From NCBI GenBank assembly GCA_018433595.1, contig JAHDQY010000009.1:124001-188000 (forward strand): a stretch of 64,000 bases of DNA, read 5' to 3'. Position 1 is the stretch's first letter; each line of letters starts with the position of its first letter. Shown one piece after another: positions 2,853 to 50,435 of this stretch. Made by a program: the position numbers and the translations under genes. Under the pieces are notes generated by a model. The model was not told the DNA's origin and did not search any database. It saw only the letters and a list, made by a program, of their open reading frames with translations. This stretch comes from Synergistales bacterium (GTDB taxonomy: Bacteria; Synergistota; Synergistia; Synergistales; Aminithiophilaceae).

Positions 2853-3440
2853 GTGGAGTGGAAAATTTTTGATATCGAGGGCGACGAAGAAGGGTTCTTC
2901 CAGTGGGTCCTTCTGACTCTTGCCGGAGCCTTCGAGTACAAGGAGTCGCCCTGTCCCGGCTATACCCGGACGGTGCGGGAGGATTTGCTTCCTTCCTTGC
3001 GTTTCCTCAAGGCCCCGACGGATCGGCGTCCCCTCTGGGGGCCCTTGCGGCTTTACGCGTCTTTGGGACGGAGCCGTTCTTTGGCGCTGCTTTGCGGCGA
3101 GGCTCTGGAAGGTCCTGTCGATTTTCTCCGCAAGCAGCAGGAATCCTCCTTCACGCTTCGGGACGCCCGGGCTGAACCGGCCGAAAGCAACTGGGGGCTT
3201 ATCGGCGTCACCTTTCCCGGTTGGGTGATCCTCTTCTCCGAAGATGTTGAAGAAGCCTGCCGTGACCGTTTTAACGACGGTTTTTCCGTGGCCTATCTGC
3301 CGGCGGGAAGCGTGAGTCTTTCCCTTCTGGATCCGGAACTTCCCGCCGAAGAGGCACTGCAGCTTCTTTTCGTCATGCTTCTCCAGTCGCTGCCTCTCCG
3401 CGAAAGTGCGGCAGGCAATGGCCCATCCGACGAATCTTAG
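2853..3440 (+). CDS. Uncharacterised protein, 195 aa
   Basis: I do not recognise this protein. It starts at GTG 2853 behind AGGAGGGG, 15 nt after hemW, so it is probably co-transcribed with lepA-hemW. It is soluble-looking, with no signal peptide or clear transmembrane segment, and has a mixed alpha/beta profile with a central hydrophobic strand (WVILFSEDVEE) and an aliphatic C-terminal helix. Its codon use resembles that of its neighbours, which supports it being a real gene. It ends 4 nt into the convergent yedF gene. No catalytic motif is visible and no function is proposed. Confidence 0.75.
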   Translation: MEWKIFDIEGDEEGFFQWVLLTLAGAFEYKESPCPGYTRTVREDLLPSLRFLKAPTDRRPLWGPLRLYASLGRSRSLALLCGEALEGPVDFLRKQQESSFTLRDARAEPAESNWGLIGVTFPGWVILFSEDVEEACRDRFNDGFSVAYLPAGSVSLSLLDPELPAEEALQLLFVMLLQSLPLRESAAGNGPSDES

Positions 3441-4033
3441 CCGATAGAGAGCCTTTTTGCCGCGGCGAAGAGAGCTTCGGTGATCTCGAACATGTTGGAG
3501 ATCGTACCGACGGAGACGCGCTCGGTGATTCCGAAGTGGTTGGTGCAGGTGCCGCAGACGAGAAGGCGGACTCCCCGGTCCTGAAGGGATTTGAGGCTTT
3601 CGCAGGTCGAGTGCTCCTCAAGGGTCAGAGTGACGGCCTCGTTCATGAGCGCCACCGTACGGGGCGGTTCGCTCCGCTGGGCGATAGTCCCAAGGAAGGC
3701 TTTCATCAGAACCTCTCCGAGAGCTTTATCGCTGCCTCCCAACGTGGCCGTGGCGATGAGAAGGCTCTCGTCGGCCAGGGCTGTCCTGGCCGACGCTCCC
3801 TCGTTCTTGGGTTCGGCGGATTTCCCCCGGCGTGCAGTGATGATGATTCGGGGTGCTGTGCCCTTCTTCTCCGTCTGCCAGCCGGCGTTTTCGAGGAAAC
3901 GCCTTACGTTTGAGGCGGAGATGGTATTGTCAACAAGGACTTCCACGGAGTCGGCCTCCGCGTCGAGGGCGGCTTTCGTCATCATGACGGGTTTGGGGCA
4001 GACCTGGCCTCGGGCATCGACGGTTGTTTTCAT
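3437..4033 (-). CDS. yedF: Sulfurtransferase-like selenium metabolism protein YedF
   Basis: A 198-residue two-domain protein. The N-terminal TusA-like fold carries the CPKP signature (Cys12, DARGQVCPKP); the C-terminal DsrE/F-like domain has CGTC near residue 160. YedF proteins co-occur with selenocysteine genes and are annotated as selenium metabolism factors, though the reaction is not settled. The start at 4033 is chosen because AGGAG lies about 10 nt upstream and the TusA domain begins there; the upstream open frame has no family similarity. The gene follows pncA on the minus strand and is divergent from selA-selB, which supports a selenium-linked role. Confidence 0.88.
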   Translation of the reverse strand: MKTTVDARGQVCPKPVMMTKAALDAEADSVEVLVDNTISASNVRRFLENAGWQTEKKGTAPRIIITARRGKSAEPKNEGASARTALADESLLIATATLGGSDKALGEVLMKAFLGTIAQRSEPPRTVALMNEAVTLTLEEHSTCESLKSLQDRGVRLLVCGTCTNHFGITERVSVGTISNMFEITEALFAAAKRLSIG

Positions 4034-4067
4034 GGTGTCAATCTCCTTCCCTGTAGCATCGCGTCTT

Positions 4068-4655
4068 TTACTGCCGGAGCAGGAGGAGTGAGAAGGATTC
4101 AATGACCAGTCCGCCCCTGTCGCGGATTTCTTCAAGAGCTCGAGTGTCGTCCCCCCTGTCGACGTTAACGCCTTTGACGGCATCGCTGACGACGTAAGTT
4201 TCAAGACCCAGAGAGAGGGAGTCAAGCGCCGTGGCTTTGACGCAATAGTCTGTGGCGAGGCCGACGATGAAGATCCTTTCGATGCCTTGCCCCGCCAGCT
4301 TTCTGCCAAGCTCCGTGCCGTCGAAGGCGGAAAGGGCCTCTTGTTCTCCGCAGGCCTTGCTGATGATCAACGGGTGGAGCGGGACCTTCAGTTCGGCATG
4401 AAAGGCTGCACCCTTCGTCCCGGCTACGCAATGAGGAGGCCAGGGGCCGCCTTGGGCGACGAAGCTGGTGTGGTCGGCCGGGTGCCAGTCCCGGCTGTAG
4501 GCGACAAGGGCCTTGGCCGACAGAAAACGGTCGACGAGCTCATTGATGACAGGGATGATTGCGTCGCCTTCTTCGACGGCAAGAGCGCCGCCGGGGCAGA
4601 AGTCGTTCTGGACATCGACGACGATGAGGGCGTCGGTTTCTCCGATTTTTTTCAT
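4068..4655 (-). CDS. pncA: Nicotinamidase / isochorismatase-family hydrolase
   Basis: Likely nicotinamidase, hydrolysing nicotinamide to nicotinate for NAD salvage in the cytosol. At 195 residues it matches the usual PncA size. The catalytic triad is Asp14 (VDVQNDF), Lys100 and Cys138 (GLATDYCVK); the metal site is Asp56, His58 and His62 in DWHPADHTSF. ATG 4655 is preferred because GGAGG (4664-4668 on the complement) lies 8 nt upstream; GTG 4664 would start inside that site. A TATAAT-like hexamer sits at 4676-4681 on the minus strand. It is first in a pncA-yedF pair divergent from selA. Other isochorismatase-family amidases remain possible, but the motif set is PncA-like. Confidence 0.85.
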   Translation of the reverse strand: MKKIGETDALIVVDVQNDFCPGGALAVEEGDAIIPVINELVDRFLSAKALVAYSRDWHPADHTSFVAQGGPWPPHCVAGTKGAAFHAELKVPLHPLIISKACGEQEALSAFDGTELGRKLAGQGIERIFIVGLATDYCVKATALDSLSLGLETYVVSDAVKGVNVDRGDDTRALEEIRDRGGLVIESFSLLLLRQ

Positions 4656-4778
4656 GGCTGTCACCTCCCATAAGGATTATACCTTCTCGACATAGTAAAG
4701 ACCCGTCTGCGATAGAATGGTTAGGAAGAGATGTTTTCGCCCGACTTTTTATTTGAGCAGAATCAGGAGGGAGAACTT

Positions 4779-6191
4779 GTGCGCGACGAGATTCACAACC
4801 TGCTGAGGCAGATTCCCCCTATGGACGAGCTGTTGTCCCGCCCCTGGGTGAGCGAGATTGAGCTTCTTCTCGGCCGTGAGGCCATGAAGTCCGTCTTTGC
4901 CGACGTGATCGGCGAGCTCCGAATGGACCTTCGCGAGGGGAAGAGCGTCGACATCAATGTCAGGCGTATCGAGGGAGAGGCTCGTAAACGGCTTCAATTG
5001 AAGGCTGCCGTAAGTCTTTGTCCCGTCATCAATGCGACGGGCATCGTCATTCACACCAACCTGGGGCGTTCCGTTCTGCCTCGCGAAGCCCTTGAGGCCG
5101 TCGTCGCTACAGGAGGGCGCTACAGCAACCTTGAGTATCGTCTTGACGAGGGGGGGAGGGGACAGCGCAACGATCACGTGGAATGGCTTCTCTGCCAGAT
5201 CACCGGTGCTGATGCGGCTCTTGTCGTCAATAACAACGCCGCCGCCGTCCTCCTCTGCCTCTCCGCTCTCGCCCGGGATCGCGAGGCCGTTGTCTCTCGC
5301 GGCGAGCTGGTAGAAATCGGCGGTTCTTTTCGGATACCCGATGTCATGGCCTTCGCCGGGACGAAGATGATCGAGGTCGGGACGACGAACCGAACGTATC
5401 TGGCCGACTATGCCGGGGCCGTTACGGCCGAGACCTCCATGCTTCTCAAGGTGCATCCCTCCAATTATCGGATCGTCGGCTTTCATGCTGAGGCCTCCCG
5501 TGAGGAACTTGCCGCTCTTGCCCGAGAGAAGGATCTGATCCTTCTCGAGGATCTCGGCAGTGGCGTTGTCACCGACCTCGCGTCCAGCGGTCTCGAAGGA
5601 GAGCCGACAGTGCGTCAATGCCTCCTGGCCGGCGTCGATGTCGTCACCTTCTCGGGAGATAAACTTCTCGGCGGTCCTCAGATCGGAGTGGTCGCAGGAC
5701 GGAAACAGATCGTCGAATGCCTTCGCCGTTTCCCCCTCCTGCGGGCCTTGAGAGTCGACAAGATGACCCTGGCGGCTCTTGAGATCGTTCTGCGCCTCTA
5801 CCTTCAGGGCAAGAGCGGGGCGATTCCGACGGTGCACATGCTCCGTCTTTCCGGCGAGGAGCTCCGTTCCCGTGCCCAGGCTCTGGCTTGCCGGCTGAGG
5901 GAGGTCTTTCCTCAGGGGACATTCGAGGCCATTCCCGCCGAAGACGCCGTCGGAGGGGGGGCCTTTCCGGAACACCCCTTGCCGGGCTGGGCCGTCGCCA
6001 TGACCTTCCCCGGCCTGTCGAGTTCCTCTCTCCAGAGGAAGCTGCGAAAGGGAGCGTTCCCTGCCGTCGTCGGTATCTGGAACGATCGGGTCACGGCCCA
6101 TGTGCGCACTCTGCTGGATGGTGATGAGGAAAGGCTCGTACAGGCGCTGAACGATCTCGTCGGAGAAGGAGCTGAAGGTCTTGAGCGATGA
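4779..6191 (+). CDS. selA: L-seryl-tRNA(Sec) selenium transferase SelA
   Basis: PLP enzyme that converts Ser-tRNA(Sec) to Sec-tRNA(Sec) using selenophosphate. GTG 4779 gives 470 residues and is chosen because AGGAGG (4765-4770) is 8 nt upstream, the SelA N-terminal motif (LLRQIPPMDELL) follows at once, and the PLP lysine in FSGDKLLGG falls at residue 295, the same number as in E. coli. ATG 4731 would add 16 residues. Fully conserved blocks include NATGIVIHTNLGRS and NNNAAAVLL. It overlaps selB by 11 nt. Its product pathway is completed by selD in the same window, which itself requires Sec insertion. Confidence 0.96.
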   Translation: MRDEIHNLLRQIPPMDELLSRPWVSEIELLLGREAMKSVFADVIGELRMDLREGKSVDINVRRIEGEARKRLQLKAAVSLCPVINATGIVIHTNLGRSVLPREALEAVVATGGRYSNLEYRLDEGGRGQRNDHVEWLLCQITGADAALVVNNNAAAVLLCLSALARDREAVVSRGELVEIGGSFRIPDVMAFAGTKMIEVGTTNRTYLADYAGAVTAETSMLLKVHPSNYRIVGFHAEASREELAALAREKDLILLEDLGSGVVTDLASSGLEGEPTVRQCLLAGVDVVTFSGDKLLGGPQIGVVAGRKQIVECLRRFPLLRALRVDKMTLAALEIVLRLYLQGKSGAIPTVHMLRLSGEELRSRAQALACRLREVFPQGTFEAIPAEDAVGGGAFPEHPLPGWAVAMTFPGLSSSSLQRKLRKGAFPAVVGIWNDRVTAHVRTLLDGDEERLVQALNDLVGEGAEGLER

Positions 6192-8097
6192 TTCTCGGGA
6201 ACTCTCTCTGGTTTTGGGAACGGCCGGTCATATCGATCACGGCAAGACTTCTTTGGTCCGGGCCCTGACGGGGACCGATTGTGATCGCCTTTCGGAGGAA
6301 AAAAAACGGGGAATCACCATTGAGCTCGGATTTGCCTCGCTGAGGCTGGCTGACGGCAGAATCGTCAGCATCGTCGACGTTCCCGGCCACGAACGGTTTA
6401 TCCGCCAGATGGTGGCCGGAGCGGCCGGGATCGACGCCGTTCTTTTCGTCGTCGCCGCCGATGAGGGCGTCATGCCTCAGACAAGGGAGCACCTGGAAAT
6501 TCTTTCGCTCCTGGGCATTCGCCGGGGAATCGTCGCCTTGACGAAAATCGATGCCGTCGATGACGATCTGCTGGAACTGGCTCGAATGGATGTCGAGACT
6601 CTTCTCAAGGGAACTTTCCTTGAAGGGGCTGCCATCGTTCCGCTCTCATCCGTGGACGGCAGGGGCATTGATGCCTTGAAGGCCGAGATCGGCCGTCTTG
6701 TCGACGAACTTCAGCCCCGGCGATGGGAGGGGCTTTTCTTCCTCCCCATCGACAGGGCTTTCCCCATCTCCGGGTTTGGCACTGTCGTCACGGGGACGGC
6801 TTACAGCGGGCGGATCCGTCTCGGTGAAGAGGTCTCTATCCTTCCCGCCGATGTCAGGGGGAAGGTCCGAAGCCTCCAGGTTCATGGCAAAGCCGTCGAA
6901 GCCGCTTCCGCAGGGCAGCGTGTGGCGCTTAATCTTGCCGGTATCTCCATCGATTCCTTGGAGAAAGGCGATGTCCTCTGCCCCTCCGACCTTTTCGAGC
7001 CGACCTCCTGTGTCGATGTCTCTTTCCAGCTCCTCCCTTCCGCCGCGGAGCCTCTTCGTCACTGGCAGCGGATCCGTCTTCATCTGGGGACTTCCGATGT
7101 GTTGGCCAGGATCTCCTTTCTTGACCGCAGTGAAATTCACGCCGGAGAGAGAGCTGTCGCTCAACTCGTCACGGAATCCCCCCTTGTCGGACTTCTGGGG
7201 CAGCCTTTCGTGGTGCGTTTCTACAGCCCCCTGAAAACGATAGGAGGGGGCAGAATTCTCAACGTCTACGGCCATAAGCCTCGTGGGGCTTCCGCACGCA
7301 GAGAGCGCCTTTCCTGGCTTTGTGATATCGAAGAGCGCCTTGAGGCAGGGAAGAGCCTTGTCGAGGTTTTTGTCGATCGTCATGGGCTGCTGCCGCTTCC
7401 CGAGGCTGTCCGCCTTCTGCAGGAGGTCCCGCTCGCCTTGACAGAGGCTGCCCAGAAGAATTCTTCGATGACTCTTTTAAGGGCAGGGTCGGAATATCTC
7501 CTCTCCTCTCGGTGGATGGCCTCCCTAGAAGGACGAGCCCAAAGAGCACTCAGCGTCTTTCACGAGAAGGAGCCCTTCCTTAAAGGTATTTCCCCGGAGC
7601 GTTTCTTCCGGGAGATCCTCCCCGGCGGGGATCTCAAGCTTCTCAAGGCCTTGGGCAAACTGCTTGTCGACAAGGGGACAGTCTGTTTCGACGAAGGGTT
7701 CTTTCGGCTTCCTTCTTTCGTTCCTACGCGCAATGAGCTCTTCCTTGAGCGGAGCGAAAAGCTGCTGGGGCTTTGCCGTGAGAGGAAATTTCAGTTTCCC
7801 GAGATCGAGGAGGCCCAATCCTTGCTGGGGCTGCCTGTCACCGAATTCCAGTCTTTGTTGAATGCCCTGAGACAGAAGAAGCAGGTCGCGATTCTTGCCG
7901 AAACCTTTCTTCTCTGCGAAGAGGTGGAAGAAGAGCTTCTTCGTCAGGTTGCGGCTCTTGGAGAGGCGATCACCCTTGCGTCTGTCCGGGATCTGACAGG
8001 GAGCACCAGACGATTTGTCCTCCCCCTCCTGGAGTATTGGGATTCACGGGGAATTACCCGACGAGTCGGTGACAAGCGCATTTTGCTTAAAAAGTAA
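6181..8097 (+). CDS. selB: Selenocysteine-specific elongation factor SelB
   Basis: GTPase that delivers Sec-tRNA(Sec) to UGA codons by binding the mRNA SECIS hairpin. It has 638 residues, starting at TTG 6181 inside the end of selA, with AGGAG upstream. The EF-Tu-like part has GHIDHGKT (residues 16-23), DVPGHERFI and TKID. Domains II/III follow, and the C-terminal third consists of winged-helix repeats that bind SECIS RNA. The start of the G domain allows only a very short N-terminal tail, so the TTG is well supported. With selA it forms a translationally coupled pair. The tRNA(Sec) gene was not found in the window. Confidence 0.96.
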
Positions 8098-45386: not shown

Positions 45387-46286
45387 GTGCTTGTTCTGGA
45401 TGGCCGGGAGCCGTCACGGAAAATGATGGATTGCTTGAAGGAAGAGGTAGAAAAGATCAAGCGTTCCAAGGGGTGGCAGCCCTGCCTAGCGACGATTCAG
45501 ATCGGTGAAGATCCAGCGGCGGCGGCCTACCTTCGGAGCCAGAGAAGGGCTTGCGAGCGTGTCGGTTTTGAAGCGAGGCGTTACGTCTTCGTCGAAGGGG
45601 TTGCTCTCAGCGAGGTTCAAACGCTTCTCCGAGAGCTCAGCGCCGATGAGACCGTAGATGCCGTTATGGTAGAGCGCCCTTTGCCGGCGACGTGGGACCT
45701 GGCCAAGCTGATGGATCTTGTTGATCCTGTAAAAGATGTGGAAGGCGTCCACCGTTCCAACCTGGGCAGTCTCTACCTAGGCGATCACAATGCGTCTCAT
45801 CCCTGTACGGCTCAGGCGATAATGACGCTTCTCAGTGAATACCATCTCGACGACCTGAAGGGAAAGAACGCTTCTGTCATCGGCGTCAGCCCCACTGTTG
45901 GGAAGGCTGTCGCCATGCTGCTTCTCCATCGAAGAGCTTCGGTGACGCTCCTTCACAGTCAGTCTCGGAGCGCGGAGGTCGTTCGGGCCCTGGAGCAGGC
46001 TGACGTCGTCGTTGTCGGTATCGGGAAACCTCGAATGATTACTGGGGATCTTCTCAAAAAGGGAGCAGTCGTTATCGATGTGGGCATTAACATCCTTGAA
46101 GACGGATCCGTAGTTGGAGACGTCGATTGGGAGAGCCTTAAAAATGTGGCCTTGGCTGCGACGCCTGTCCCTGGCGGTGTGGGTCCGTTGACCGTAGCTT
46201 CGTTGATGGAAAACGTTCTTCATTGTGCCAAGAAGAGGCGGCGGCCCCCTTTCGGGGTCGCATCGCAAAAGGGTGCAGATAGGTGA
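45387..46286 (+). CDS. folD: FolD-like methylenetetrahydrofolate dehydrogenase/cyclohydrolase with altered active site
   Basis: FolD fold: PGGVGPLTVASLMEN near the end, IGVSPTVGKAV (Rossmann loop) near residue 163 and PVKDVEGV near residue 117. FolD oxidises methylene-THF and hydrolyses methenyl-THF. Three positions important in characterised enzymes differ: the conserved Lys (human Lys56, E. coli Lys54) is Gln52, the Gln of VQLPLP is Glu96, and the Asp of KDVDG (human Asp125) is Glu119. The cyclohydrolase, or the whole activity, may be changed. It has 299 residues; GTG 45387 follows AGGGGGG. It is coupled to the next gene by GTGA overlap. Confidence 0.85.
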   Translation: MLVLDGREPSRKMMDCLKEEVEKIKRSKGWQPCLATIQIGEDPAAAAYLRSQRRACERVGFEARRYVFVEGVALSEVQTLLRELSADETVDAVMVERPLPATWDLAKLMDLVDPVKDVEGVHRSNLGSLYLGDHNASHPCTAQAIMTLLSEYHLDDLKGKNASVIGVSPTVGKAVAMLLLHRRASVTLLHSQSRSAEVVRALEQADVVVVGIGKPRMITGDLLKKGAVVIDVGINILEDGSVVGDVDWESLKNVALAATPVPGGVGPLTVASLMENVLHCAKKRRRPPFGVASQKGADR

Positions 46287-47140
46287 AGCGGAGCGGCAAA
46301 AAGTGCCTTTTCTTGCTCCTCCTGTTGTTTTTGTCCGGGTTCCGTTTTTGGGGTGTCCCCTTTTCGGAGGCCCAGGAGTCGGGGCGACGGTCTCTCTGGG
46401 TGACGTCGCCTTGGTTGGCGTTGATGTGCCGCTTTGTCGGAGGTGTCTATGTCGATGTCCATCCGTTGGCAGCCTGGGATGAGGGAGGAAACCTTTTGCT
46501 GGAGGCCAAGAGGCCTCCGGAAGGCGGGACAGTCATAGCCCTCGACAAGGAGGAGGGGCACCTCTACGGATTCAAGGGGAAAGATGTGGAGCTGCGGACT
46601 CTTTACAGTCGCCTTCCTCTCGGTGATGCCGAACGGGAGAGGCTTTTTCTTGATCCTGCCGGCCTGCCTTTTTTGGGGCAACGACTGTTGGTTGTTCTGG
46701 CGGACATCGATAGGGAGTGCTACGGTTATTATCAGAGGCGGCTTGCCGAATTTCAGTCACGTCTCGAAAGCACCGTGGACGTTGGGAGGCAGATCATCGG
46801 AGATGTTCTCCTGCTGGACCTTACCGGCCGGAGCTCCCTTTTAATCGAAGGAGCCGTCAAGGCGCCCATCAGGCCCCCTGAGGCGGTTTGGACGAAATGG
46901 GAGCAGGGCCAGGGACTCTCCTCGCTTAGGCTCTCTCTGCAGGAGGCGCGACGACGGGGCTGGCTTGTCGTCGTGGATGTCTGGACTCCGGAGGGAATAC
47001 GTCTGGAGGCGGAGACGACGGGCCCCATCGTTTTTCTGCCCGGTCCGTCAATCGAGCAGGATCTTTTCTTGTTCCTCTATGATCAGTATCTGGCGATATG
47101 GAATGCGATGAGGCAGAAAGAAAGCGGGAGAGGGGCTTAA
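46283..47140 (+). CDS. Signal-peptide protein resembling a TroA/ZnuA-type metal-binding receptor
   Basis: A 285-residue exported protein: basic N terminus, hydrophobic core (LLLLLFLSGFRFWGV) and likely cleavage after SEA. The body resembles ZnuA/TroA-type metal receptors in outline (SPWLALMCRFVGG near the start; DIDRECYGYYQRRLAEFQSRLE, the interdomain-helix pattern). The usual His ligands are not obvious, so metal binding is doubtful. GTG 46283 overlaps the folD-like stop. No ABC permease or ATPase is nearby. The family assignment is by pattern only and could be wrong. Confidence 0.5.
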   Translation: MKRSGKKCLFLLLLLFLSGFRFWGVPFSEAQESGRRSLWVTSPWLALMCRFVGGVYVDVHPLAAWDEGGNLLLEAKRPPEGGTVIALDKEEGHLYGFKGKDVELRTLYSRLPLGDAERERLFLDPAGLPFLGQRLLVVLADIDRECYGYYQRRLAEFQSRLESTVDVGRQIIGDVLLLDLTGRSSLLIEGAVKAPIRPPEAVWTKWEQGQGLSSLRLSLQEARRRGWLVVVDVWTPEGIRLEAETTGPIVFLPGPSIEQDLFLFLYDQYLAIWNAMRQKESGRGA

Positions 47141-47156: not shown

Positions 47157-48188
47157 CTACCGGATGTCGATGCCGGATCCCGGCAGGAAGGTTCCGATCC
47201 GGCGGGCATCGGAAAATCCGATGTCGCGAAGAGAGGAGACGAAGGCAGAAACGACTTCCTCCGAAACGGCAATGAGAAGGCCTCCGGATGTCTGAGGATC
47301 GAAAAAAAGGTCGCTTCTTTCAGGAGGCAAGGTGTCGAGTCCCGTCACGCGGCTTGCGTAGAGGTCCCGGTTTTTGTAGGCTCCGGCAGGCACGAGTCCC
47401 ATGGAGGCCGCTTCGAGGACGCCCGGCAGAAGGGGGAGCGCTTCCGCCTCGATGCGGCAGCTCAAGTCTTCTTCTGCAAGCATGTCCAGAAGGTGACCTG
47501 CCAGTCCGAAACCGGTGACATCGGTACAGGCATGGACCTGGGAAAGCAACGGGCGTGGCAGCTTCAGGGGAACATCGTTGAGAGTCGCCATCGACGTCAG
47601 GGCCTTCTCTCCGTGGACGGTGTTGAAGAGCTGGGCCATCATCGCCGTTATGGCGATGCCCGTTCCCAGGGCTTTTGTCAGAATCAATGCGTCTTGATCT
47701 CGGGCGCCGGTGACGCGCCAGATGTCCTTACAGGAAACCTCTCCGTAGACGGCAAGGCCGAACTTGGGCTCCTGATCTTCGATGCTGTGGCCGCCTGCCA
47801 GGATGGCGCCGGCTTCAAGCGCCTTTTTCTGACCGCCTCGGAGAATGTCCTGAAGCATCTCCAGGGGGAGGCATCCGAGAGGGAAGCCGACAAAATTGAG
47901 GGCGATCAGCGGTCGTCCCCCCATGGCGAAGACGTCACTCAGAGCGTTGGCCGCAGCGATTTCGCCCCACAATTCACCGTCGTCGACGACAGGCGTAATA
48001 ACATCGAGCGTGAATATTCCCGCTCTCTCCTCATCAATTGCCCAAAGAGCGGCATCCTCGCCGTGCGCCCAGCCGGCAAGCAGACGATCCCCCCTTGCGG
48101 GGGCAAGGCCGTCAAGAACTTTCTGCAGGTCCGCCGGACCGATTTTCGCGGCTCACCCGCTGCTGTGACTCAGTTCCGTCAGTCTCAC
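47157..48188 (-). CDS. selD: Selenophosphate synthetase SelD, selenocysteine-containing (UGA at 48155-48153)
   Basis: Makes selenophosphate from selenide and ATP, the Se donor for SelA. The visible frame from 47972 lacks an N terminus, but upstream in the same frame the sequence MRLTELSHSSGUAAKIG reads through a TGA at 48155-48153. That UGA sits exactly where Cys17 of E. coli SelD is (pattern U-x2-Lys, Sec12 and Lys15), so it is selenocysteine. A SECIS-like hairpin follows (48128-48140). GTG 48188 gives 343 residues; AGGGGG is 8 nt upstream. GEDAALWAID, ITPVVDDGELWGEI and VTGFGLAGHLLDM are conserved. It follows birA on the minus strand. Standard gene callers would truncate it. Confidence 0.92.
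48128..48140 (-). promoter_or_regulatory. SECIS-like hairpin for selD UGA
   Basis: On the minus strand GGTCC-GGC-GGACC forms a perfect 5-bp stem with a 3-nt loop, beginning 12 nt after the UGA. The E. coli fdhF SECIS stem starts about 11 nt after its UGA, and GGUC is also its apical motif. Lower pairing GCCG (48152-48149) with CGGC downstream is possible. Confidence 0.7.
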
Positions 48189-48237
48189 TGCGGACACCCC
48201 CTTTCACTGGTGTCGGTGAAGAACATCTCCAAGGCTC

Positions 48238-49239
48238 TTAATGGCGAGGGCGCAGATGAACGACATCGGCTGCGGTGAAAGTCAAAAGCCCCCCCGCGGA
48301 TTCGATTCGCAGCGCTCCTTCGGGGCTGAGCTCGACAGCACGGCCTTCGTGGCACTGTTCTCCCGTCGTGACCCGGACTTCCCGGGTCAGTGTGTGGCAG
48401 CGACGGCTGTACTCCTTGACCAGCAAGGTATCTCCCCCTGGTTTTTCCAGAGCGGCGAGCCTTTCCTCAATGGCTCTGACGATGGCGGCAACGACGTTGC
48501 CGCGGTTGACGCTATGTCCCAAAATGGCAAAAAGAGAGCTTGCCTCCCCTTGCAGTTCTGGAGGCAAGGAATCAAGAGGTGTGTTGGCGTTGAGGCCGAT
48601 GCCTGTAACGGCGTAATGGACCCGATCGGCCTCGCTTGCTGCCTCGCTGAGAATGCCGCAGAGCTTCTTCTCCTGCCAGAGGATGTCGTTGGGCCACTTC
48701 AGTTGACAAGGGAGATCGAAGAGGTTCCAAAGGGCATCGCTGACGGCAAGGCCTGCAGCGAGGTTGAGGAGCTGAATCTTTGAGGGGACAAGCCTGGGAC
48801 GTGATAGGATGGAAAGATAAATCCCCCCTTTTTGGGGGGAAACCCAGCGGCGCCCTCGGCGTCCACGTCCCAGTGTCTGTTCCTCGGCAAGGCAAATGAC
48901 ACCGGCCGGGGCGTTGTTACGTGCCATTTGTTTGAGGACTTCCTGGGTCGATTCCAGCCGGTCCCACCACAGGACGGGATGCCCCCATGGGCAGTCTTTT
49001 AAAAGGAAATCGATCCAGGAGGGAGCCAGGTCCGGGAAAGAAGTCTCTTTCAGGGTATAGCCTTTTTGAGGTGACGAAAGAATGACGAACCCTTCTTCCC
49101 TCAGGGATTCGATCGCCTTCCAGATGGCCTGTCGTGTCACCCCCGCCTTGGTACGGAGCAATGCGCTGGAAACGAGTTTGTTCCGTTGGTCAAGGAACAT
49201 GGAGAGGACGGCGATTTTCGTGGGATTTGATCGCTGCAA
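48238..49239 (-). CDS. birA: Biotin-protein ligase / biotin repressor BirA
   Basis: Attaches biotin to carboxyl carrier proteins and probably represses biotin genes. It has 333 residues: an N-terminal winged helix (residues 1-65, ALLRTKAGVTRQAIWKAIESLREEG), then the ligase domain with GRGRRGRRWVSP near residue 135, KWPNDILW and GIGLNAN near residue 220, and a C-terminal SH3-like end. TTG 49239 is preferred: AGAGGTGG lies just upstream and the predicted promoter start (about 49266) is too close for ATG 49335, which would overlap prfB. It is transcribed toward selD. Confidence 0.85.
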   Translation of the reverse strand: MQRSNPTKIAVLSMFLDQRNKLVSSALLRTKAGVTRQAIWKAIESLREEGFVILSSPQKGYTLKETSFPDLAPSWIDFLLKDCPWGHPVLWWDRLESTQEVLKQMARNNAPAGVICLAEEQTLGRGRRGRRWVSPQKGGIYLSILSRPRLVPSKIQLLNLAAGLAVSDALWNLFDLPCQLKWPNDILWQEKKLCGILSEAASEADRVHYAVTGIGLNANTPLDSLPPELQGEASSLFAILGHSVNRGNVVAAIVRAIEERLAALEKPGGDTLLVKEYSRRCHTLTREVRVTTGEQCHEGRAVELSPEGALRIESAGGLLTFTAADVVHLRPRH

Positions 49240-49254
49240 TGAGGCCACCTCTTT

Positions 49255-49282
49255 TTGATAGAAATCGCTATGATGATATAAT
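49255..49282 (+). promoter_or_regulatory. Promoter for prfB
   Basis: TTGATA (49255-49260), 16-nt spacer, TATAAT (49277-49282). Predicted start near 49289, 45 nt before the prfB ATG. Confidence 0.75.
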
Positions 49283-49301
49283 GAAACACCATTGCTTTCA
49301 A
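49273..49301 (-). promoter_or_regulatory. Promoter for birA-selD
   Basis: On the minus strand TTGAAA (49301-49296), 17-nt spacer, TATCAT (49278-49273); it overlaps the prfB -10 on the other strand. Confidence 0.6.
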
Positions 49302-49333
49302 CGTCAGCTTTTTTCAAAAAAGGAGGTTCCGTC

Positions 49334-50435
49334 ATGGCGCAATTGCCGATTTCGACGGTAATGGAGGAACTGAGGGGCCTGGCAAAGGCTCTCCAGGACA
49401 GTCTTTGACCTTTCAGCAAAGGAAAGACGGGAGGATGAGCTTCTCCATGTGACTTCTCAGCAGAGCTTCTGGGAGAGAGAGGATGCGCAGGATCTCAGCC
49501 GGGAACTGGCGCGTCTTCAAGAGCTTCGCGAAGACTGGAGGCACGTGGAGGAGAGGCTTGATAACTTGGAGGCTCTGGCGGAGATTCTTGCTGAAGAGAG
49601 CGATTCCGAGTTAACGGAGGAATTTTATGCAGCCGCCTCGTCTTTCCGAAAGGCGATGGAGGAGAAGCAGACGCATCTTCTTCTCAACGGAGACTTCGAT
49701 GAGCGCAATGCCATTCTCACCATTCACGCTGGAGCCGGAGGGCTTGACTCTCAGGATTGGGCCGAAATGATGCTGAGGATGTATTTGCGGTGGTGTGAAA
49801 ACCGCGACTTCCACGTCCAGGTCCTCGATGTTCAGAATGACGGCGAAGCGGGCATCAAAAGTACCGTTATTCTGGTGAAAGGTCCTTATGCGTTCGGTTA
49901 TCTGCGAGCCGAAGTCGGCGTTCACCGTCTTGTGCGGATTTCACCTTTTGATGCCGCGAAGAAACGCCATACGAGTTTTGCTTCTGTTCACGTGATTCCG
50001 GAATTGCCTGATGATCTGGAGGTCCATATCAGGCCTGAAGATCTGAGAATCGATACCTACCGGGCCAGCGGCGCCGGTGGACAGTATGTTAATATGACCG
50101 ACTCCGCCGTGAGAATCACCCACATCCCTTCCGGCATCGTTGCAAGCTGCCAGGACGAGCGTTCTCAGCACATGAACAGGCAGGTCGCGATGAAGGTACT
50201 CAAGGCCAGGCTTTACGAACTGCAACAGAGGGAGCGCCATGAGCAATTGGAGAACCTTCAGGGAGAAAAAAAGGAAATCGGCTGGAGCAGTCAGATCCGT
50301 TCCTATGTGCTGCATCCCTACACGATGGTCAAGGACCATCGGACGGGGTGTGAGGTCGGGAATGTCCAGGCCGTTCTTGACGGTGATCTAGACCCCTTCA
50401 TTTTTGCCTTCCTGCGCTTCAGCAAGACGGCGTAA
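49334..50435 (+). CDS. prfB: Peptide chain release factor 2 with programmed +1 frameshift
   Basis: Recognises UAA/UGA and releases the nascent chain. The N terminus is in frame 49334-49405 (24 codons ending SL), then a UGA (49406-49408); the rest continues +1 from GAC 49407. The joined product has 366 residues, the E. coli length. It has SPF (codon specificity) near residue 205 and the catalytic GGQ in SGAGGQYVN near residue 250. ATG 49334 follows AGGAGG at 7 nt. The UGA is the site by which RF2 senses its own level: low RF2 favours the frameshift. Confidence 0.96.
49395..49409 (+). other. Programmed +1 frameshift signal of prfB
   Basis: AGGA (49395-49398), 4 nt, then CTT TGA C (49403-49409): CUU-UGA-C is the canonical slippery site, with a Shine-Dalgarno-like element just upstream, as in other prfB genes. 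Confidence 0.92.

Follow-up and report, generated by a model that had tools for sequence, protein, structure and literature searches.

An in-frame UGA at the catalytic position of selD in a Synergistales bacterium, very probably read as selenocysteine

Sequence comparison indicates that, in this Synergistales bacterium, an in-frame UGA in the selenophosphate synthetase gene selD is almost certainly decoded as selenocysteine (Sec) at the catalytic site of the product. The gene (47157 to 48188) lies on the minus strand of the window, that is, the whole 64,000-nucleotide stretch of DNA analyzed, and runs from a GTG start at 48188 through one in-frame UGA to a TAG stop at 47157. Conservation of the UGA, coding constraint on both sides of it, constraint on the RNA of a downstream hairpin, and the presence of selA, selB, and selC are established. 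The initial annotation of this DNA had proposed SelD as a selenoprotein with an in-frame UGA and a SECIS-like hairpin, and its main points all turned out to be right.

Under ordinary open reading frame (ORF) rules, the selD frame opens only at TTG 47972 and yields 271 aa. This is where the frame had initially appeared to begin, with its N terminus to be recovered upstream, and read-through does extend it to GTG 48188. The resulting 343-residue product, once aligned with known SelDs, showed a full SelD domain, scoring 338.7 bits against the curated model TIGR00476 (equivalog cutoff, 125). It aligns with Escherichia coli SelD (PDB 3u0o) from the first residue (residues 1 to 339; E value, 1.5e-60) and with Aquifex SelD (2yye) nearly from the first residue. 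In same-genus relatives the homologous start codon is ATG, an argument for starting at GTG 48188, and a putative Shine-Dalgarno-like element, AAAGGGGG, was found by inspection 8 nt upstream of it (48197 to 48204, minus strand). Directly upstream of selD on the same strand is a birA-like gene (48238 to 49419; TIGR00121, 182.5 bits), whose stop is separated from the selD start by 49 nt, and the two genes probably share one transcript.

Two neighbors of selD are also worth recording. The convergent gene at 46283 to 47140 (plus strand) encodes 285 aa with a secreted-protein-like N terminus and matched no NCBIfam model. The gene for release factor 2, prfB (49334 to 50435, plus strand), has the classic programmed +1 frameshift: translation starts at ATG 49334 and meets an in-frame CTT TGA C at 49403, where a one-base shift joins both frames into full RF2. 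Simple ORF annotation starts this gene at 49449, and the arrangement is ordinary.

The UGA (48153 to 48155, minus strand) sits in the context SHSSG-U-AAKIG. When aligned with 3u0o, U12 falls on the catalytic Cys17 and K15 on Lys20; in the alignment with 2yye, the UGA is likewise opposite the catalytic Cys, and K15 again matches the Lys. The codon, its context, and its pairing with Cys17 and Lys20 are thus as first described. From the UGA to TTG 47972, where the next possible start lies, a same-genus copy, one of the two closest full ones, differs synonymously at 24 codons and nonsynonymously at 9, and third positions take 30 of the 40 base changes, so this stretch is translated. UGA also serves as an ordinary stop codon here, ending 11 of the 27 window genes checked, so that recoding is a local matter and leaves the genetic code of this genome unchanged.

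Conservation across the order bears directly on how the UGA is read. SelD with TGA at exactly this position was found in 84 of 121 genomes, representing 84 of the 87 genomes that carry SelD and 87 of the order's 90 SelD loci. TGA is present in both of the closest full copies, which are 75% identical to the window SelD, and the same TGA and hairpin recur in independent genomes whose identity goes down to about 52%, complete single-contig ones included. It is conceivable that the UGA is a real stop, so that selD is broken or makes a short SelD from TTG 47972, as the 271-aa ORF given by ordinary rules would have it. However, the identical TGA is kept in 84 genomes, the stretch from there to the TTG has the substitution pattern of coding sequence, and the short form would be without the catalytic Sec/Lys loop, which makes a real stop extremely unlikely. 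Less probable still, to the point of being negligible, is a sequencing or assembly error in a TGC or TGT Cys codon: one base change would suffice, but the sharing of TGA and hairpin by relatives as distant as about 52% identity, complete genomes among them, already refutes it.

The initial annotation had also held that related strains with a sense codon at this site would speak against recoding. Such codons occur only in the three other SelD genomes, where the site is TGC (Cys) and SelD is divergent. We rejected these copies as counterevidence, as their identity is about 43 to 45%, they branch outside the main clade, and they come from genomes without Sec machinery. Indeed, selB and selC are both present in 77 of the 84 Sec-SelD genomes and at least one of them is present in all 84, while the three Cys-SelD genomes have neither.

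The remaining genomes differ in what they contain. SelD, selB, and selC are all missing from 21 of the 121. Another 11 have selB and selC, with no SelD above the curated cutoff and no UGA-hairpin sequence (G007, G017, G024, G025, G028, G040, G041, G050, G068, G092, and G094); several of these come from just two genera, g16 and g7. All 11 are at most 96% complete, so assembly gaps are likely. In genome G054, selD (L017 and L097) is divided between two contigs whose ends overlap, the break lying in the UGA-hairpin stretch. It is possible that this highly conserved stretch breaks metagenome assemblies and hides selD. Sec-SelD is present twice in each of two genomes, G104 (the second copy being L091) and G087 (L076 and L089).

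In the bSECIS elements of E. coli formate dehydrogenases, a small hairpin whose apical loop is rich in G follows the UGA directly and is read by SelB. In the window selD, a 12-nt spacer coding for AAKI (48141 to 48152, minus strand), ungapped across 76 distinct sequences, separates the UGA from a candidate bSECIS hairpin, GGUCC-GGC-GGACC (48128 to 48140, minus strand; apical loop, 48135 to 48133), supported by codon freezing, pair counts, and a consensus fold. Its DNA sequence, GGTCC-GGC-GGACC, therefore begins 12 nt after the UGA, at 48140 to 48128, just as had been claimed. A published bSECIS model (PMC13188914) allows a loop of 3 to 9 nt with G in the first two loop positions, an upper stem of 4 to 16 bp, 16 to 37 nt from UGA to loop, and a minimum free energy of at most -7.5 kcal/mol. 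The selD hairpin is within all the geometric limits, having a 3-nt GGC loop with G first, 5 bp, and 17 nt from TGA to apical loop; unlike the formate dehydrogenase elements, it has a loop and a stem close to the smallest sizes that the model allows. The best fold has an energy of -7.2 kcal/mol over 21 nt and -8.2 kcal/mol over 41 nt, which is borderline with respect to that model; versions from relatives give -7.9 and -9.3 kcal/mol.

Folding and chance occurrence do not by themselves single out the hairpin. Longer stretches of the window sequence alone favor other folds with unremarkable z-scores, and single-sequence folding with flanks produced no significant hairpin; such folding was consequently left out of the support. 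An Rfam search at the selD UGA site returned no SECIS match, and its only hit there, a weak CRISPR-repeat match on the opposite strand, was dismissed as chance. Some bSECIS-like hairpin follows 203 of the 2,064 TGA triplets in the window (10%), and for this reason we rejected the hairpin alone as proof, although the exact geometry of this hairpin occurs only at the selD TGA. In the aligned sequences, joint conservation of TGA and hairpin across the order is far beyond chance, and it is this conservation that decides.

Codon choice and base pairing across the order indicate that the hairpin is under selection as RNA, beyond the demands of the protein. Relative to expectations from codon usage in the same genes, the hairpin Gly codon is GGT in 74 of 75 cases (11.4 expected), the Pro codon CCG in 77 of 82 (27.3 expected), and the Ala codon GCG in 71 of 71 (20.4 expected). 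Synonymous difference at these three codons is 0.00 to 0.12, versus 0.5 to 0.8 at most neighboring codons. For the Ile codon that precedes the stem, 68 of 77 cases are ATA, a codon that accounts for 36% of Ile elsewhere in the genes concerned; in most relatives it adds a sixth pair, A-U, which is absent in the genome studied here. True two-sided covariation is found at one stem pair only, the second (alignment columns 17 and 27), which in the 76 distinct sequences is G-C in 47, G-U in 13, C-G in 7, and mismatched in 9, with 7 cells showing two-sided change versus 1.5 in shuffles. All nine mismatches are G-G; like the missing sixth pair and the small size of the hairpin, they weigh against a bSECIS. 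In part of family f5, the pair has gone from G-C to C-G through a joint change of Gly to Ala and Asp to Glu, and this flip apparently passed through the G-G state still present in relatives.

The genome also encodes the machinery for Sec insertion. Absence of selC had been named as an argument against recoding, and the search for it found a tRNA-Sec with anticodon UCA (Rfam RF01852, 78 bits). The initial annotation had placed selA, selB, and yedF in the same window, and curated models match all three: selA, for Sec synthase (4731 to 6191, plus strand; TIGR00474, 547.3 bits); selB, for the Sec elongation factor (6181 to 8097, plus strand; TIGR00475, 358.7 bits); and yedF, for a selenium-metabolism protein (ORF 3437 to 4309, minus strand; TIGR03527, 173.6 bits), the true start of which is probably inside that ORF. 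Other genes of the same genome, serving as controls, have in-frame TGA as well: GrdA (CFV-U-TAA), two GrdB (TSTUGTCTRCG), and two FdhA with one TGA each. The two grdB-like genes with the TSTUGTCTRCG motif, L130 (C60) and L131 (C29), are also matched weakly, below cutoff, by the PrdB model. A selenouridine synthase was sought in this genome and none was found, which leaves selenoproteins as the evident clients of SelD, genes for Se cofactors being set aside.

A further possibility is that a near-cognate tRNA (Cys, Trp, or Arg) reads the UGA in place of SelB and tRNA-Sec, with the hairpin merely slowing termination. Hairpin-aided, Sec-independent read-through has been proposed for insect SPS1-UGA genes (PMC4561486). 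The hymenopterans with SPS1-UGA, however, are described as selenoproteinless, and selA, selB, and selC are all present here. Across the order, moreover, the TGA form is accompanied by selB and/or selC in 84 of 84 genomes and the Cys form occurs without them, and the spacing, loop, and stem are within bSECIS limits (PMC13188914). We consider near-cognate reading very unlikely.

The main Sec-SelDs of the order fall into a single clade with strong support in a tree built from 112 SelDs; it comprises 83 rows, every one with Sec. The odd copies of family f5, three with Cys and three with Sec, fall outside it among other phyla, which suggests lateral gain, their exact places being unsure given several long branches and open forks. 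Also, the second SelD of G104, L091, groups with a Tissierellia SelD (support, 99/90) and has no GGUCC hairpin; these features suggest that it too was gained laterally. Outside the phylum, GGUCC-GGC-GGACC recurs unchanged in a Sec-SelD from Anaeroferrophillacea. In a clostridial Sec-SelD the third pair is turned around (GGACC-GGA-GGUCC), and one from Bacillales reads GGUCC-UGA-GGACC. Bacillaceae Cys-SelDs cluster with this last one; they share the KIGPADL peptide and have no such hairpin, so the hairpin tracks Sec and not the peptide. Some distant Sec-SelDs have other stems instead, and two from Chloroflexota showed no hairpin in a simple scan.

Sec-containing SelD is an established family, known from other bacteria as the initial annotation had stated: it makes up about 19% of SelDs in a set of 223 prokaryote genomes (PMC4561486), and examples include Aquifex aeolicus (PMC1242214) and Pasteurellales. 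The window SelD resembles known Sec-SelDs in its UGA at the catalytic position, its SSG-U-AAK type of motif (SSGCAAK in the Aquifex chain 2yye), the hairpin immediately downstream, and the presence of selA, selB, and selC in the genome. It differs in that the SelDs of the order form their own well-supported clade with a near-invariant GGUCC-GGC-GGACC. E. coli SelD (3u0o), in contrast, has Cys for Sec and no SECIS, and its Cys19 corresponds to Ala in the window SelD. A study of Synergistetes selenoproteomes (PMC5029168) reported the Sec trait in 13 of 14 genomes of this selenoprotein-rich phylum; the present analysis adds the SelD pattern per genome for 121 genomes. Both Sec-SelD and the selenoprotein richness of Synergistetes are therefore already published, and the window selD is a further case. 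Being of a published kind and near-universal in the order, it is real but ordinary.

Taken together, these data leave us with very little doubt that selD encodes a selenophosphate synthetase that is itself a selenoprotein, with Sec directed to the UGA by SelB and the hairpin. From the sequences we infer insertion, catalysis, and feedback as follows. SelB with GTP and Sec-tRNA(Sec) would bind the hairpin downstream of the UGA and bring Sec to the ribosome. In the flexible N-terminal loop of the product, Sec12 and Lys15 would convert selenide and ATP to selenophosphate, with which SelA would produce Sec-tRNA(Sec) to supply SelD itself as well as the cell's other selenoproteins, GrdA, GrdB, and FdhA. 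Without Sec, the ribosome would halt after 11 residues of SelD. A search of the genome found no second SelD, so that SelD depends on its own product.

The UGA might additionally act as a selenium-sensing switch, low Sec-tRNA stopping SelD after 11 residues in a self-reinforcing and possibly all-or-none manner. Dependence of the sole SelD on its own product follows from this anatomy; yet the same dependence exists in every organism with only Sec-SelD, and there is no sign of its use for control, so we regard a switch as rather unlikely. We would likewise entertain only tentatively the broader idea that the RNA hairpin dictates the SelD protein in this order and, combined with a single self-dependent SelD, could provide a selenium-triggered on/off switch for the selenoproteome. 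If true, residues beside the catalytic loop would follow the SECIS and not the reverse.

That SelD needs its own product brings up a known question, namely how such cells begin to make selenoproteins, and this dependence is not unique to the present genome. As ordinary gene calling starts selD at 47972 and thereby loses the catalytic residue, the correct call matters for selenium annotation in Synergistota. The order-wide alignment of 76 distinct sequences, in turn, provides a clean natural data set on the limits that a bacterial SECIS sets to codon and amino acid choice.
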